Shown: piece after piece, positions 21,765 through 30,311 of the stretch
Position numbering within the stretch: the first letter of the stretch is position 1
Layout: every line of letters starts with the position of its first letter
The notes under the pieces: model-generated
Told to the model about the DNA's origin: nothing
The model's database searches: none
Seen by the model: only the letters and a program-made list of their open reading frames with translations
Program-made: the position numbers and the translations under genes
Assembly: GCA_949287395.1 (NCBI GenBank)
Contig: CASEFZ010000037.1
Location: 1 to 32,187 of the forward strand
Source: an uncultured Verrucomicrobiota bacterium
GTDB taxonomy: Bacteria; Verrucomicrobiota; Verrucomicrobiia; Opitutales; Intestinicryptomonadaceae
DNA: 32,187 bases
Direction: 5' to 3'

Positions 21765-23639
21765 CTCTAAAGCCGCTCTTTTTCGATATATCGAACTCTT
21801 TTTGCCAAAAGAAAGTCCCGCCCCAAAAAACGCAAAAAATGCGCACGCCCACACGAACCAATCCCCATGGCGCGCATAAAACGAGGCTGAGGAATCAAAA
21901 TTCTTATAGAAGCAAACATCGGCAAAGCCTGCCCCCCTAAAATATATGGAACCGTTTTCGTCCAAAAGCGGCCCGCCCCTAAGCGGTTTTAACGTTTGCG
22001 GGTCTATCTTCCTACCGAGAGCATCCACGATGTCAAAGTTCTTTACCGGTTTGGAAGTAGTATCGGCCTTCCATGCCGTAGAATCTTCATTTTTGAGAGT
22101 TATGGTGGGGAACATTTTCCCGTATTGGTCAAACGCGCAACTAAGGCCATTGTTTGAACTCCTCAAAATGGGCTTCCTAAGGGAAACAGCCTGCAGAGCG
22201 GAATGCGCGGCGTGCTGCCATGCGCCGCCTTCACGTCCGTACCAGGAATCGTTGGTGCATACAAAGATAAAATCGGCGCCGTTTCTGGCCGCCCTCAGCC
22301 CCAAAGAGGGAAACACGTCTTCATAGCATATCATATTTCCCATTTTCAACGGTTTGCCCTTTACTGTAATGTCGAGCGGCTCAAAAAAATCCCCCCTCTT
22401 AAGCTCTCCCACAGGAATTACTTTACCCAGCCACGATGCCCAAAACGGCACATATTCGCCAAACGGCACAAGCTTTGTCTTTGCGTAAAATTTCTTGCCC
22501 AAACCGTCTTTTGGGTCGATGACAAACGCTCCGTTTTGCACTTTTGCCTCGCTCTCAAGCAGGGCCATGTTTCCAAGCGCCATGGGCGTGTTTATGCGTT
22601 TTGACAAATCCTCAAGCAGTCCCCTAACCGCTGGGCTACCAATGATGGGCCATCTTGGAGGAGTTGCGGCCTCGGGTAGCAAAAGTAAGTCTACCCCGGC
22701 TTCGCCCAGCGCAAGCGTTAAAGCTTTTACAACCCTGACATTTTCATAGGCCATGTCGTCGCGCCACTTGAGAATGCCGGGGAAATTCGGCTGGACAAAT
22801 CCTACCCTAAAGCAGTCGCGCGCGTTTACTTTTGAGGGAAGTTCGGAAATGTACAGCCATACACCGCTAAATACCAACAATAGAGCCAAGTAAAACTCCG
22901 GCGAAAATCTCCCAAACCGCGCAATTTTTGTAAACCTGCTTTCCGATCTTACCCTGTACCACGCATAGAGCCTGTAAAAATACTCCTCCACCGCAAGGTT
23001 GAAGAATATCAGCGTAAACGATACGAACCACACACCGCCGAAAGACGCGCTTTGTATAATTGGTATTCTCAGCCACTGTGAGTGCCCCAAAAGCATCCAC
23101 GGAAAACCCGTAAAAATCCACGAGCGCACCCATTCAAGCAGTACCCACAATCCGGCAAGGCCGCACAATTTTACAAGCCTTTTCCATATCGGATCTTCAA
23201 GTTCAGGCAACATCCGCGGCGCCACCGCAAACCATGGAAATATAAACAGCCCCGACACCACCAGCGGAAGAAGCAAAACAGCCCCCCAGCCCGCAGGCGG
23301 GTAAACGTGCCTCAGCCACACCAATATGAAAATCCACGACAAATACGAGAAAACAAAAACCGACGCCAAATATGCGCGCACCGCGCGCTTCCTTTGCATT
23401 TTTGCCTCGTGGTTGCGTGCCCGCGCGCTTTCAGAACCGATTGCGTTGGGCTCCAACACAAGCCTTTTTGACAACCCCAGCGCCCTTGCGCACCAGAGCA
23501 GGGGAACTGCGAATATATAGGCAAATTCCGCCGCCCCGACAGGCTCAAAAGCCGACGCATACAATGCAAACGCAAGCGCCGCCGCCAACACGATCAGTGC
23601 CGCGGCGCGCTTATCGCCAAGCTTTCCCGTTGCCGTCAT
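21753..23639 (-). CDS. lnt: Apolipoprotein N-acyltransferase
   Basis: Inner-membrane enzyme that adds the third acyl chain to the N-terminal Cys of lipoproteins. The 628-residue protein has about seven to eight hydrophobic segments (residues 13-265), a periplasmic nitrilase-like domain (about 275-570) and a C-terminal membrane helix (about 590-612). The catalytic triad is in place: Glu323 (LLPEAATP), Lys387 ([12 protein letters not shown]) and Cys438 (MICYEDVFP), followed by NDSWYG. It is somewhat longer than the E. coli enzyme (512), partly through a charged loop around residues 58-85. Its ATG overlaps the secA stop (ATGA), so the two are translationally coupled. It fits functionally beside signal peptidase and SecA. 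Confidence 0.95.
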
Positions 23640-26611
23640 TCGCGCACCAAACGCCAGCCTTCCTCAAGTATGAGTTTTTCGGCCTTCTTGAATTTCAACG
23701 TCTGAACTTCGCCGTTTTTGGTTATTTTCACGATGTCGTTGCGGCCGATTTTCGGGAGCTCAACTTTTGGCTCCGGAAGCTTTACGTTCCTCGAGCGCGA
23801 AGCAGGGGCACTGCCGGGAAGCCCGCCGGATACCCCGCCCGGACCCTCGTGGACAACCTTGTTGTGCATTCTCTCAAGCATGGATTGCAACACCTCTATG
23901 CTTGACGCGCTCCTGAATATTCCCAGGCAGACGTCGTTGCGTACCTTGCCCATAAGAGCCTCAAAATACTTGAACGCTTCACTCTTATATTCGTAAAGGG
24001 GGTCTTTCTGGGCATAACCGCGCAAGCCTATGCTTCTGCGCAAATCTTCCATTTCCGTCAGGTGGTCCTGCCAGTTTTTGTCAAGCGCGCGCAAAACTAC
24101 AAACCTCTCTATTGCCACAAGCGCCTCGGGCAGCTCAACTTCCTCTCTTACCTTATAAAGAGCCTCTATCTCAGACATTATGGCGTCGTGTATTTCCTCG
24201 GCGCTCTTCTCAAACAATTTTTCGGCGTCTAAATTTATCGGGAAACGGCTTGTCACCCAGCTGCACAGGGTTTTTACGCTGTTTTGTCGGTCATCGGAGC
24301 CTATCCCCGCAAGCGCTCCTATGCGCTCATCGAGTTCGTCCTTTATAAAGTCGAACACCATTTCGCGCGGGGTATCCGCGTGCAAAATTTCGTTCCTTAA
24401 CCCGTATATTATTTCCCTTTGCTTGTTAAGAACATCGTCAAACTGCAACAAGCGCTTGCGGTACGAATAATTTTGAGATTCAACCGTCTTTTGGGCTCGC
24501 TCTATCGAACGGTTCAAAAGGGGATGGTCAAGCGGCTGTCCCTCTTGAAAAGTCTTGTCCAAAAGCTTTGCAACAGGGCTCCTGCCGAATATTCGCAGCA
24601 AATCGTCTTCCAATGAGAGCAGAAAGCGCGACATTCCCCTGTCGCCCTGGCGCGCGCAGCGCCCGCGCAGCTGCCTGTCTATGCGCCTGGCTTCGTGGCG
24701 TTCCGTGCCCAAAACGTACAAGCCGCCAAGCTCCTCAACCTGGGGCGTTATCTTAATGTCCGTTCCGCGGCCCGCCATGTTTGTGGCAATAGTCACAGCT
24801 CCAAGCTCTCCGGCTCTGGCAACTATTTCCGCCTCCTTCTCGTGGTTTTTCGCATTCAGAACATTGTGGGGAATGCCCGTTCTTCTAAGAACTCTGCTCA
24901 ACAATTCGCTTGCCTCGACAGATGCCGTACCCACAAGCACGGGCTGGCCGCGCGCATGGGCGCGCTTTATCTCCTCCACCGCCGCATTGTATTTTTCGCG
25001 CCTCGTCTTGAATATGACATCGTTGTAATCAACTCTCCTGCATGGCTTATTGGTGGGTATTGCCATCACATTTAACGCATATATGTCGTGGAATTCCTGC
25101 GCTTCGGTTTCGGCCGTGCCGGTCATGCCGGCAAGTTTTTCGTAGAGACGGAAATAATTCTGAATTGTTATGGTTGCGTAGGTCTTGGTCTCCTTTTCTA
25201 TTGCCACCCCTTCTTTGGCCTCAACCGCCTGGTGCAGGCCTTCGCTCCACCTCCTGCCGTACATTATTCGGCCCGTATTTTGGTCAACTATGTGCACCTT
25301 GCCGTCTTGAACAACATATTCGACATCTTTTTCATATATCGAATAGGCGCGCAAAAGCTGGCTTATGCAGTGTATTTCCTCGCTTACTGCTATGTACTTG
25401 TTCTCGGCCGCTATCTTCTTTTCCTGCCTCTGTTGCGGGGTTAGGGAAGAGTCGGCGTCTATGTCCATGAATATTGTCGCCAGATCGGGAAGCACAAACG
25501 CGTCGGGATTTTCCGGGTGTATGGCGCTTCGGCCGCTCTCGGTAAGATCGCTCGTGTGCTGTTTTTCGTCTATGACATAATAAAGCTGCTCTTTGTACTT
25601 GAAACTTTCGTTCTTTCTAAAGTCGGCGGCCATTTCCATGTCCAATTTGTCCAGCTTTTTACTCAGGACAGGATCCTCCATCAACTGGCGCAATATGCGG
25701 TTTTTCGGCGCTCCCAACTTCACCTGCCACATTTTAATAATAATGTCCTCTCCCACTTCCTTGCCGGAATCGTGGGCGCTCTTGACCTCCCCAATAAGGC
25801 GGTTGCACAAAGTTTCCTGAAGGCGCACAACCTTTTCTATTGCCGGCTTGTATTTAGTAAAAGGCAATTCCCTCTCCTCGTCGGAAGGCCCCGATATGAT
25901 AAGGGGGGTTCTTGCCTCGTCTATTAAAATGGAGTCCACCTCGTCAACAATACAGTAGTAATGAGGGCGCTGAACTTGAGAGGCTGCGCTGTTTGCCATG
26001 CCGTTGTCTCGCAGGTAGTCGAAGCCAAATTCACTTGCCGTACCGTAAGTTATATCCGCTTTGTAGGCGGCGGCCTTCTCGTCCATATCCTGCATGTTAT
26101 AAATCCAGGACACACTTATACCCAAAAAATTATAAAGATAACCCATCCACTCCGAGTCTCGTTTTGCCAAGTACTCGTTCACCGTCACAAGATGGCAGCC
26201 TTTTCCCGTAAGCGCATTCAGGTAAAGGGGCAGGGTGGCAACAAGCGTCTTGCCTTCGCCCGTGGCCATCTCGGCTATCATGTTGTTGTGCAGGGCTATT
26301 CCGCCTATAAGTTGCACGTCGTAGTGCACCATCTCCCATGTTAGCTCGTGGCCGCACACCATTATCTTCTTGCCGCAAAGCCTGCGGGCGGCGTTTTTTA
26401 CAGCGGCGAAGGCTTCGGGCAAAAGCTGGTCGAGGGTCTCGCCCTTGGCGTACCTCTCCTTAAATTCAGCCGTTTTTGCCTTGAGCTGATCGTCGCTTAA
26501 ACTCTGATATTCCTGCTCTATTTTATTTATCTTTGCTATTATGGGCCGCGTTTTTCTGTAAAATTTCTTGTAGTGGCTTCCCGCAAATAATTTTAATATT
26601 TTAGCTATCAT
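23636..26611 (-). CDS. secA: Preprotein translocase ATPase SecA
   Basis: ATP-driven motor that pushes unfolded preproteins through SecYEG. The 991-residue length is within the family range. Walker A is MATGEGKT (115-122), the DEAD-like box gives [15 protein letters not shown], and the second motor domain has [10 protein letters not shown]. The preprotein-crosslinking domain and helical wing/scaffold are recognisable, and [12 protein letters not shown] is present. The C-terminus ends GWRLVRE without the Cys-rich zinc tail found in SecB-binding SecA proteins. ATG 26611 matches the family start (MIAKILK). No Shine-Dalgarno is close: upstream is AU-rich, and the start codon region can pair with sequence just after the preceding ORF. 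It overlaps lnt by 4 nt. A 140-aa exported ORF sits upstream, as secM does in E. coli. Confidence 0.97.
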
Positions 26612-26729
26612 TTTATCAAATTTTTAAATAGTTTTCCCGTGCGCATTTTTACAATTTCCGGCGCGTCACGGCACTTTATATGACGCAAGGGCACCACCCA
26701 GGCGCCGCCGGAAAATTTATGATAGAAAA
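26605..26729 (-). promoter_or_regulatory. Long-range pairing that could mask the secA start codon
   Basis: On the minus strand, CTATCAT (26725-26719), six nt after the stop of the upstream ORF, is perfectly complementary to ATGATAG (26611-26605), which contains the secA initiation codon. Pairing can extend: AAATTTT (26718-26712) with AAAATTT (26624-26618) if GATAAA bulges out, and TTTT (26729-26726) with AAAA (26602-26599) past a 2-nt bulge. A ribosome halted at the ORF's last codons (26738-26733) would reach to about 26722 and collide with this strand. The helix is A/U-rich and was not computed. Confidence 0.5.
26655..26714 (-). promoter_or_regulatory. Three-way-junction RNA in the secA leader
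   Basis: On the minus strand three helices nest almost without gaps. P1 is TTTCCGGC (26714-26707) with GCCGGAAA (26662-26655), 8 bp. P2 is GGCGCC (26706-26701) with GGTGCC (26695-26690), 6 bp including one G-U, loop TGGGT. P3 is GCGTCA (26686-26681) with TGACGC (26668-26663), 6 bp with a 12-nt loop. Only three junction bases (CTT) are unpaired. No T-run follows, so it is not a terminator. It fills half of the 121-nt gap before secA. Confidence 0.6.
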
Positions 26730-26732
26730 ATT

Positions 26733-27155
26733 TTATGGCGCACGTATCAGGGGCAAAAACGCAAAATGGAAATTCGGCATCCGCACGGCACCGCACAAAG
26801 CAAGGCGGCAAGAAGTTTCGCCGGAATATACAAGGGCGGGGCGGGGCGGACAGAAAGCGAACGCGCCTCCCTGGCCAGAATCTACAAAATCCGACGGTGC
26901 CAATGTGCCGCTTCTTAAAAGCTCAAAGAAACGCAACCTTTTGCCGGCGGAATTCTCCGCGGCGAAGTTTTCCGCCCTCTTTGGATGTGCAACCCCTGAA
27001 ACCGAATTCCTAACAGCCCTTATTCCTGCCAATGGCTCTGAGATCGCATAAGCGTTGTTGTAATATTCGCCCGGAGCCGCCGCGCAAAAAGTCTGGGCGC
27101 ACACGGCAACCAAACCGCATGCAGCCGAAAACTTTCCGCCAAACTTAACCCGCAT
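26733..27155 (-). CDS. Small exported ORF upstream of secA ending in Arg-Ala-Pro-stop; SecM-like arrest peptide candidate
   Basis: A 140-residue protein with no recognised family. It has an N-terminal signal peptide (basic MRVKFGGK, hydrophobic core, AAA-type cleavage near residue 27), a middle region without clear domains, and a C-terminus FAFLPLIRAP ending directly at TAA (Arg 26744, Ala 26741, Pro 26738). ATG 27155 is preceded by GGGGAG with 10-nt spacing, the strongest ribosome site in this cluster. It lies 20 nt after lepB and 121 nt before secA. E. coli SecM (170 residues, exported, just upstream of secA, arrest motif ending GIRAGP) and the RAPP-type arrest peptides before other Sec genes share this layout. 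I infer a secretion-monitoring role. The rival view is a gene with a frameshifted C-terminus, since another frame runs on to an ATGA overlap with secA. Confidence 0.65.
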   Translation of the reverse strand: MRVKFGGKFSAACGLVAVCAQTFCAAAPGEYYNNAYAISEPLAGIRAVRNSVSGVAHPKRAENFAAENSAGKRLRFFELLRSGTLAPSDFVDSGQGGAFAFCPPRPALVYSGETSCRLALCGAVRMPNFHFAFLPLIRAP

Positions 27156-27175
27156 ATATTACTTTCTCCCCTTAT

Positions 27176-28483
27176 TTACTTTGTAGCACCCCACCGGTTG
27201 GTAAATGGATAAAAAATTATAAGGCTTTTCCCCACAACGGCCTTCTCCGGAACTTCGCCCCAGTAGCGGCTATCCAAACTATTCTCGGAATTGTCGCCCA
27301 GGGCGTAATAGTGCTTGGGCGATATTTTTATTGAGGCCCCGTCCGAGAGGGCTCCGTCGGCAACATATCCGCAATAATCCCCCTCTTTTGAGGCATTTTT
27401 ACCAAAGGCGTAGCTTCCTTCTGCGGGTTTGCCGTTCCTGTAAAGCGTTGACTGGCGGATCTGCAACTGGTCCCCCTCCTGTCCGGCAAGGCGCTTTATG
27501 TAGTATTTGTCGTCGGGCACCCCCCCGTTTCGGCGCATCATGCCCTCGCAATATTTGGTCATGAAAACTATGGGCTCTCCCACTTTCGGTTTCCTGAAGT
27601 TGTAGGTAAACCTGTCGACAAACAGCATGTCTCCGCCCAATATGTCGAAATTTATGACAGGCTCTCCGCGTTTGAATTCGCCAAGCCTCAAGAATTCCGT
27701 GCCGTTTAGGTTTACTACCCGTCCGGCGTTCCTTGCGGCGCTGATATATTCAAGCACGTCACGCCCCGCGCGAACTCCGCGCGACCCGGCATCTCCCACC
27801 GGATAGGCCTGCATAATCACCGAATCTAAATTGAAATCTGCGGGAACGCTTACTTTAACGTCTTTGCCGCCTACATTGAAAGTGTACTCCCGCTCAACCG
27901 AGGGCCAAACGAAATATTTATTCACCCTCTTTGGCTTGAACGCAAACATTCCGCCATACCTATGCGCGGCTTCAAGAGAATTTATCTCCAATAGGGCCTC
28001 GCCGTCTTTTGGAGCCTCAACTTTGTAGTTTCCGGCTCCAAGGCGTATTGTTCTCCATGCGCGTTCAAGTGCGTCCGGCCCGGATTCCCCGCGCTCATAC
28101 ACCTTAGATGTCATTCCATAAAAACTTGGATACATCGAATTTGTGGGAATTTTAAAAGGCTGCAGGAAAAAGCTGCGCACCGCTATGGCTAAAATGCCGG
28201 CCACAATTATGGTATCGACATAGTCAGACACCGTCGAAAGCGGGTATACCATGCCGCCGTATTTTTTCATTGCGGCCTCCAAGTCTTTTGAGGCGCGGTC
28301 GAATTCGGCGGAATCCGTTTTTGCGTCTAAAACGAGGTCGTCAAGCTTGTCCAAAAGGGCGTAAAATTTTTCGGCCTCATCTTTTGGCATGATGTCGCGG
28401 CGGTAGTTGTAAACCTTTTCCGCCTGCGAGAGCAATTCCTTCGCAGCCTTTTTAGCGCCCTTTGATTTGCCGAATAAAAACAT
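27176..28483 (-). CDS. lepB: Signal peptidase I with large insertion
   Basis: Membrane serine protease that removes signal peptides from Sec substrates. I start it at ATG 28483 (MFLFGKSKGAKK, 435 residues), preceded by purine-rich GAAGAAAAAAG; an in-frame GTG at 28519 would overlap lepA by 8 nt. A charged N-terminal cytoplasmic part (about 1-85) precedes one membrane helix (about 88-106). The nucleophile Ser116 is in PTNSMYPS, the general-base Lys330 in YYIKRLAG, and box E reads GDNSENSLDSRYWG with VVGKSLII after it. About 210 residues separate Ser and Lys, against 55 in E. coli LepB, so an extra domain of roughly 150 residues lies between them. Its neighbours lepA, the SecM-like ORF, secA and lnt make an export cluster. 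Confidence 0.93.
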   Translation of the reverse strand: MFLFGKSKGAKKAAKELLSQAEKVYNYRRDIMPKDEAEKFYALLDKLDDLVLDAKTDSAEFDRASKDLEAAMKKYGGMVYPLSTVSDYVDTIIVAGILAIAVRSFFLQPFKIPTNSMYPSFYGMTSKVYERGESGPDALERAWRTIRLGAGNYKVEAPKDGEALLEINSLEAAHRYGGMFAFKPKRVNKYFVWPSVEREYTFNVGGKDVKVSVPADFNLDSVIMQAYPVGDAGSRGVRAGRDVLEYISAARNAGRVVNLNGTEFLRLGEFKRGEPVINFDILGGDMLFVDRFTYNFRKPKVGEPIVFMTKYCEGMMRRNGGVPDDKYYIKRLAGQEGDQLQIRQSTLYRNGKPAEGSYAFGKNASKEGDYCGYVADGALSDGASIKISPKHYYALGDNSENSLDSRYWGEVPEKAVVGKSLIIFYPFTNRWGATK

Positions 28484-28511
28484 CTTTTTTCTTCGCGTTG
28501 CGGTGCGTTTT

Positions 28512-30311
28512 TTAGGCACCTGATTTTAAAACGTCCACAAACGCCTCCTGCGGAATGGAAACTTTCCCTATCTGCTTCATGCGTTTTTTGCCCTCTTTCT
28601 GCTTTTCCAAAAGTTTTCTCTTTCTGGTGATGTCCCCGCCATAACACTTGGCGGTGACGTCTTTGCGGAAAGAACCTATTGTTTCTCTTGCTATAATCTT
28701 GCCGCCTATCGCCGCCTGTATGGCCACCTTAAACATTTGCCTGGGCAGTATGTTCTTTAACTTTTCACACAGGGCACGCCCCTTAGATTCGGCGCGGTCG
28801 ACATGGACAATAGAGCTGAAAGCGTCAATTTGCTCTCCATTTACAAGAATGTCAAGGCGGACAAGTTTTCCCGGTTCGTACCCGGCCATCTCGTAATCTA
28901 AGCTCCCGTAACCGCGCGTTATGCTCTTTAGGCGGTCGTTGAAATCCACCAATATCTCGTTTAAGGGCAGGGTGCATATCAGCATTACGCGGGAATCGTC
29001 TATATTTTCGGTGCGCTCGCAGAAGCCGCGTTTCTCGGCTATGAGGGCAAGCATGTCGCCTATGGAATCGGTGGGAATAAGTATGTTGGCTTTAATCTTT
29101 GGCTCGTAAATTGTTGCTATCAAAGAAGGATCCGGAAGGTGGCAAGGATTGTCTATTTGCGTGTGCGTGCCGTCTGTAAGATCCAACTTGTAAACCACAC
29201 TCGGATAAGTTGATATAATGTCCAAGCCGTATTCCCGGCGCAGGCGCTCTTGGACAATTTCCATGTGCAAAAGGCCAAGGAAACCGCATCTATAGCCAAA
29301 CCCCAATGCTGCAGAACTTTCCGGCTGAAACACAAGCGCCGAATCGTTCAGCTGAAGCTTTGCTATTGAAACCTTTAACTTCTCGTATTCCGAAGTATCC
29401 ACCGGATATATCCCGGAAAATACCATGGGCTTCACCTCTTTGTATCCGGGAAGCATCTCCTTCGCAGGATTATTCGCCAAAGTGATTGTATCGCCTATCC
29501 TAATGTCCGAGACAACCTTTATATTTCCGGCAATGTATCCCGTGCAACCTGCGTCCACCGAGGCCTCTGCGCACATCGTTGGCCTGAAATTCCCAACCTC
29601 TTTTATAGATGCCTTCTTGCCGCTTCCCATAAACTCTATTTCGTCGCCCGGGCGGAAGCTTCCGGAAAAGACGCGCACGTAGCATATTACGCCTTTATAG
29701 GCGTCGAAAATGCAATCGAAGACAAGGGCCCTTGCCTCTGGGTAGTCGGCCAGGCGCGGCGGGGGAATGCGCTCTACAACCGCATTCAAAATTTCCTCTA
29801 TGCCTATCCCCGACTTTCCGCTTGCCAATATCGCATTGTCGGCGGGAATCGCCAGCACGTCCTCAATTTGCTTCTTGCACGCTTCCGGCTGGGCCGCGGG
29901 GAGATCAACCTTATTTATCACGGGAATAATCTCTAAATTTTGCGCCGCCGCAAGATACGCATTTGCCACAGTTTGCGCTTCCACACCTTGGGCCGCGTCT
30001 ATCAATAAAAGCGCGCCCTCACACGCCGCAAGAGATCTTGAAACCTCATAAGAAAAATCGACATGTCCGGGGGTATCTATCAGATTTAATAAATATTCCT
30101 CCCCATTGTGTTTATAGCGCATCGACACAGGATGGCACTTTATTGTTATTCCGCGTTCGCGCTCAAGGTCCATGGAATCGAGCAGTTGATCCTGCATGTC
30201 GCGCTTGCCCACAGTACCAGTAGCCTCAAGGAGCCTGTCCGAGAGGGTGGTTTTGCCGTGGTCGACATGTGCTATTATGCAAAAATTTCTTATCTTGGAC
30301 AGCTCTTCCAT
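28512..30311 (-). CDS. lepA: Elongation factor 4 (LepA) GTPase
   Basis: Ribosome-associated translational GTPase. The 599-residue length and domain order match the family. G1 is AHVDHGKTT (residues 14-22), G2 RGITI, G3 DTPGH, G4 NKVD, and the G5 region reads SGKSGIG, where SAKTG is more common. The LepA-specific C-terminal domain is complete, with [26 protein letters not shown]. This ending separates LepA from EF-G and TypA. The start ATG 30311 has AAGGGA four to five nt upstream. Its stop falls just before the lepB start, and lepA-lepB adjacency is also seen in E. coli. The 61-nt gap to birA holds no obvious terminator, so all may be one transcript. Confidence 0.97.

Follow-up and report, generated by a model that had tools for sequence, protein, structure and literature searches.

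In current structures, the ribosome stalling by RAPP is explained by a hydrogen bond to the proline in the A site. Toeprinting of the RAPP-like class shows the P site occupied by the third motif residue. RAP without the following Pro fails in some contexts, as in the RAPG form of ApdP and SecM (PMC12992588). In ApcA, an actinobacterial upstream ORF (uORF) of yidC2 with the RAPG type of motif (Sakiyama et al. 2021, PMC7897499; Fujiwara et al. 2024, PMC10987492), the A site is reported to tolerate Pro, Cys, Asn, Thr, Ser, Asp and Ala besides Gly (PMC7897499), and the motifs of the uORFs clustered with ApcA include RAPS, RAPA, RGPT and RAP-stop (PMC10987492). Arrest at a stop codon upstream of secA is also known, in the case of uA_NSP-stop (PMC10987492). 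For identification of the Sec-monitoring arrest peptides, Fujiwara et al. (2024) employed four in silico criteria, namely a small uORF of unknown function oriented like its sec gene, a secretion signal, a conserved C-terminus and a signal-to-stall-site spacing of more than 30 residues (PMC10987492).

The window, the whole stretch of 32,187 nucleotides that was analysed, forms contig 37 in the draft genome (1.93 Mb) of a gut-type Verrucomicrobiota bacterium, whose closest relatives with a name are uncultured Opitutales and Puniceicoccaceae bacterium Marseille-Q1082 (Verrucomicrobiota). The genes lepA-lepB-uORF-secA-lnt form a string on its minus strand. The original prediction had placed a SecM-like arrest peptide of 140 aa at positions 26733-27155, 20 nt after lepB and 121 nt before secA, ending in FAFLPLIRAP and TAA; all these coordinates and spacings were confirmed, on the minus strand. 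The features of the locus are as follows.

27176..28519, minus strand: lepB, signal peptidase I, the upstream neighbour (Peptidase_S26, 2.6e-32)
27156..27175, minus strand: lepB-uORF gap of 20 nt with the purine-rich, ribosome-binding-like stretch AAGGGGAG
26733..27155, minus strand: uORF of secA for a putative Sec-monitoring arrest peptide of 140 aa; eight further genomes of the genus have a homologue in this position
27075..27155, minus strand: signal-peptide region, residues 1-27 (MRVKFGGKFSAACGLVAVCAQTFCAAA), from hydropathy and an N-terminus kept across the uORF family
26733..26747, minus strand: C-terminal core Ile-Arg-Ala-Pro plus stop TAA, with Pro140 as the predicted P site and TAA as the predicted A site
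26612..26732, minus strand: uORF-secA spacer of 121 nt, with a GC-rich hairpin (TTTTCCGGCGGCGCC...GACGCGCCGGAAA) and then an A/T-rich leader without clear Shine-Dalgarno sequence
23636..26611, minus strand: secA, 991 aa, the presumed regulated gene (SecA_DEAD, 4.5e-118)

The uORF protein begins with MRVKFGGKFSAACGLVAVCAQTFCAAAPGE. The strong ribosome site of the original prediction corresponds to AAGGGGAG, located about 9 nt 5' of the ATG, but such a clear site is missing in most of the homologues. Its N-terminus carries a basic n-region (3 K/R), followed by LVAVCAQTFCAAA at residues 15-27, which is by hydropathy the only hydrophobic segment of this kind in the protein. A signal-like hydrophobic segment, without a second one, was detected by hydropathy and charge in all eight members with intact N-terminus, and the N-terminus of the family follows the pattern M-x-K-[FI]-x-H-S-x-S-x-x-x-G-[FL]-x-V-A-C, this family-wide conservation supporting, together with hydropathy and charge, the Sec signal peptide proposed originally.

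A genome search with the single window sequence gave no convincing homologue. Since the uORF family is too divergent for such a search (14-20% identity to the window protein; lengths of 110-145 aa), the regions upstream of secA were compared instead, for the genomes of the family and then for roughly 100 additional loci from within and outside the order. Homologues of the uORF were found at the lepB-secA locus in 9 of the 14 genomes of the genus (Opitutales/Puniceicoccales, Verrucomicrobiota), i.e., G000 (window), G001, G004, G005, G006, G007, G009, G012 and G013, so that the short signal-peptide ORFs expected between lepB and secA of relatives do exist in eight other genomes; the G012 copy lacks its 5' end because the contig stops there, and the G006 copy breaks off just after RGPTGCV. 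Search of 246 genomes of the order with the profile A1 returned exactly these nine (E 4e-44 to 5e-10), and among the 246 genomes no RAP uORF was found outside the genus, either by the profile or by secA-anchored reading of the upstream regions. Weak profile matches in G075, G150 and G202 contained internal stops and were discarded. The uORF is absent in four genomes of the genus (G002, G003, G008 and G010; loci L014, L018, L023 and L028), in which lepB ends 24-84 nt before secA, and this patchiness is typical of Sec-monitoring arrest peptides, for which patchy presence is the published pattern (PMC10987492). G011, a one-contig genome of the genus listed as 95% complete, gave no match for SecA, YidC or SecDF and was counted neither way. 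At locus L044, the RAP lies 94 nt from secA. The regions upstream of yidC and secDF contained only rnpA/yidD-like and yajC-like neighbours, with no comparable uORF before yidC in the genus genomes examined (G000, G001, G003, G006 and G010) or before secDF among the genus genes examined.

After alignment of the nine C-termini anchored on the motif, Arg and Pro were found in all nine, Ile in eight and Ala in eight (Gly once); eight copies read I-R-[AG]-P, and the ninth, which is without Ile, reads A-R-A-P. Pro precedes Ile in six of the nine, with no conservation further upstream. At the level of sequence, the comparison shows a small signal-bearing uORF between lepB and secA with two conserved parts, the N-terminal signal peptide and the C-terminal (P)-I-R-A-P, the latter being the only strong conservation besides the signal and followed by a codon for Ser (five copies), Ala (one) or Thr (one, after RGP) or by stop (two, the window and G004). 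The composition-based chance of R[AG]P within the last 16 residues is about 0.012 per protein, a value that overstates independence if multiplied over nine relatives. Independent evidence is provided by codon variation, because Arg is encoded by CGT, CGC, AGG or AGA and Ala by GCG, GCT or GCC across the homologues, and such synonymous changes indicate selection on the residues, not on the DNA. The original prediction had named a long conserved C-terminus past residue 140, or a lack of RAP conservation at the end, as evidence against itself; R[AG]P is located at the C-terminal end in 9/9 homologues, and the extension past RAP among the complete ones is at most 9 residues, indicating that the window ORF is not a frameshifted longer gene. 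The Pro is at residue 110-140 in the copies with intact N-terminus, and its distance from the end of the signal is variable, about 80-115 residues, exceeding 30 residues and falling in the published range for secA-linked arrest peptides.

All the four features used by Fujiwara et al. are thus found together in this uORF. The best explanation, with a probability of about 80% in our estimate, is that the uORF encodes a Sec-monitoring substrate, a putative built-in gauge of protein export. The position, the signal, the long variable spacer and the conserved I-R-A-P support the original prediction of a force-sensitive monitor; the stalling, the release by force and the control of secA are what we infer for the uORF from these features. 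With Arg-Ala-Pro in the P site, the nascent chain would fix the peptidyl-transferase centre in the conformation known from RAPP-like stalling and block its reaction with the next A-site substrate. In most relatives this substrate would be a tRNA carrying Ser, Ala or Thr, and in the window genome the release factor at TAA. Export of the N-terminus through Sec would pull the chain and free the ribosome, while under slow export the stall would persist and the expression of secA from the same mRNA would go up. Counting against this explanation are the four genus genomes that manage without the uORF, the missing conserved RNA structure in the spacer, the nearly unaltered accessibility of the secA start in the folding, and the failure of RAP without Pro in some contexts. 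Candidate routes from the stall to higher secA include mRNA refolding, mRNA protection and antitermination.

For the first of these routes, the uORF-secA spacers of the window and the homologues were folded with shuffle controls, and no conserved RNA structure was found among them; compared with the shuffles, the spacers are not unusually structured (z -1.6 to +0.7). The GC-rich hairpin of the window is slightly more stable than shuffles (z -1.5), and no conserved counterpart was found in the relatives. The secA leaders are mostly A/T-rich without clear Shine-Dalgarno sequence, and placing the ribosome on RAP barely altered, with no consistent change, the accessibility predicted for the secA start. 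Given neither a conserved helix nor consistent refolding, the helix-opening mechanism of E. coli is without sequence support here, and mRNA protection or antitermination are possible alternatives. Directly before secA of the window, a 12-codon mini-ORF starting with ATG was also noted (26612-26650, minus strand), of which the TGA overlaps the secA start as ATGA, and this overlap could allow translational coupling; no mini-ORF of the same form was seen before secA in the relatives inspected.

The signal peptide and the co-directional arrangement with lepB and secA could also suit a small secreted protein with an ordinary extracytoplasmic job, in which IRAP would serve as a binding or processing tag and the placement between lepB and secA would reflect operon history. 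We consider such a protein an unlikely explanation, because its body is almost unconserved in length and sequence, because the window protein has no match in Pfam, NCBIfam or PDB, and because the conserved core is exactly the ribosome-stalling RAP motif, located near the C-terminus and, in two genomes, at the very end.

As a putative Sec-monitoring arrest peptide, the family is best compared with ApcA, with which it shares the C-terminal R-A-P in the P site, a non-proline A site and the Ser, Ala, Thr and stop variants of the ApcA cluster. It differs from ApcA in preceding secA instead of yidC, in the phylum, and in carrying a Sec signal peptide and a long variable spacer in place of the short YidC-type spacer; no overall sequence similarity between the two is claimed. 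The RQH family (e.g., uA_RQH_Pseudomonadales and uA_RQH_Myxococcales; PMC10987492) likewise consists of Sec-linked RAPP-like uORFs, but the tested RQH motifs have P or G at the A site, where the window family has Ser, Ala, Thr or stop. The uA_NSP-stop type agrees in its location upstream of secA or secDF and its C-terminal Pro, and it arrests with the stop codon in the A site, as the window peptide would (PMC10987492); however, it has Asn two residues before Pro and Lys two before that, whereas Arg occupies the Asn place in all nine members here, and its stop is fixed, whereas in the window family Pro directly precedes stop only in the window and G004 and a sense codon in the other seven.

SecM of Enterobacterales is also an exported peptide immediately before secA and shares I-R-A directly ahead of the stall site, and to this extent the likeness to SecM proposed originally stands. 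Its motif, F-x4-W-I-x4-G-I-R-A-G-P, however, stalls with RAG in the P site and depends on an A-site Pro, whereas the window family has RAP-S/A/T/stop and is without the F-x4-WI element; for the mRNA helix that sequesters the secA ribosome site in the SecM system, no conserved counterpart and only a small predicted change were seen in the spacers folded. The ApcA-type RAP-X therefore fits the family better than the RAG-P of SecM. ApdA and ApdP, located upstream of secDF2, have the identical R-A-P in the P site (RAPP; PMC10951233), but Pro is strictly needed in their A site and is found there in 0/9 members of the window family, and for this reason they are not the closest relatives by mechanism. 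TnaC is similar by analogy only, in that it stalls at a stop codon. The statement that no arrest peptide of this form was known in the lineage has to be qualified, because RAP-stop, RAPS and RAPA are already listed in the ApcA cluster and uA_NSP-stop is located before secA (PMC10987492).

In the SecA tree, G004 (L036, RAP-stop) groups with two RAPS genomes (L040 and L041) with the support of 100/98, while the window branches elsewhere; with the deep branches within the genus not resolved, this topology indicates one or more exchanges of sense and stop codons, two being the simplest assumption. Both RAP-stop copies use TAA, and RAP-stop apparently arose twice. The retention of one core across a change of A-site substrate, aminoacyl-tRNA versus release factor, is a fact of sequence. 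Read mechanistically, a single orthologous arrest-peptide family would have switched its A-site substrate between Ser/Ala/Thr-tRNA and release factor once or more, in the simplest case two times. The same RAP conformation in the P site would then prevent peptide-bond formation as well as release, with no need for the A-site proline demanded by the current RAPP models; we hold the chances of this reading to be even.

The stop codon might instead be a mark of decay, having truncated a longer RAPS peptide after RAP and weakened or abolished the arrest in the window and G004, an explanation concerning only the RAP-stop copies and compatible with Sec monitoring by the family. The nesting of G004 with RAPS genomes indicates that the stop is probably derived there, and TCA turns into TAA or TGA by one base change; nevertheless, both copies retain an intact signal peptide and IRAP and contain no internal stops or frameshifts, the lost residues (SAA, SAMPL) are not conserved, RAP-stop occurs in the ApcA cluster, and Pro-stop arrest has been proven for NSP-stop and NAP-stop (PMC10987492). 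On these grounds decay appears improbable. That the ORF arose by chance between lepB and secA and ends in RAP by accident, for which one could cite the antisense ORFs of comparable length in the same stretch and the lack of a clear homologue by single-sequence search, has a negligible probability and is refuted by the nine same-locus homologues found with the profile, R[AG]P in the last 16 residues being expected by chance in about 1.2% per protein.

A full-text literature search found no arrest peptide described in Verrucomicrobiota, an earlier listing in the supplement of PMC10987492 being possible. A secA-linked, ApcA-like RAP family in Verrucomicrobiota, with its A-site codon switching between Ser/Ala/Thr and stop, appears to be new. 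The Sec-monitoring arrest peptides would hereby be extended to Verrucomicrobiota, with a set of natural variants in which one I-R-A-P core is followed by a Ser, Ala, Thr or stop codon; without A-site proline, the family lends itself directly to asking how other A-site substrates, release factors included, are blocked by RAP. Puniceicoccaceae bacterium Marseille-Q1082 is a RAPS-form member, and is probably cultured, since it does not bear the label of a MAG.

A second, divergent SecA (L030-L034), about 55-60% identical over the N-terminal 200 aa, occurs in several genomes of the genus and is missing from the window genome. Separately, a second family of small uORFs, about 125-155 aa long with an N-terminal hydrophobic segment, was observed in the window's genus and also in a single genome from a sister genus. 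Most of its members have a [PD]KLRxKRR-like element, and their C-termini read LLI-stop or FLI, LII or LLL, mostly with TGA and with synonymous codon variation. They are located as follows.

L233:1450-1917 (plus strand), L234:1498-1920 (plus strand), L235:1498-1908 (minus strand) and L236:1495-1938 (plus strand): before the second SecA, in 4 genomes
G015/L237: before a divergent SecA
L245 and L255: before the OAD beta gene (Na+-pumping decarboxylase beta subunit)
L238 and L256: before an NhaD-like CitMHS transporter
L239: before an apparent nhaD remnant and a Na/Pi cotransporter

The LLI-stop uORFs could be a candidate new family of stop-codon arrest peptides, largely sodium-linked.
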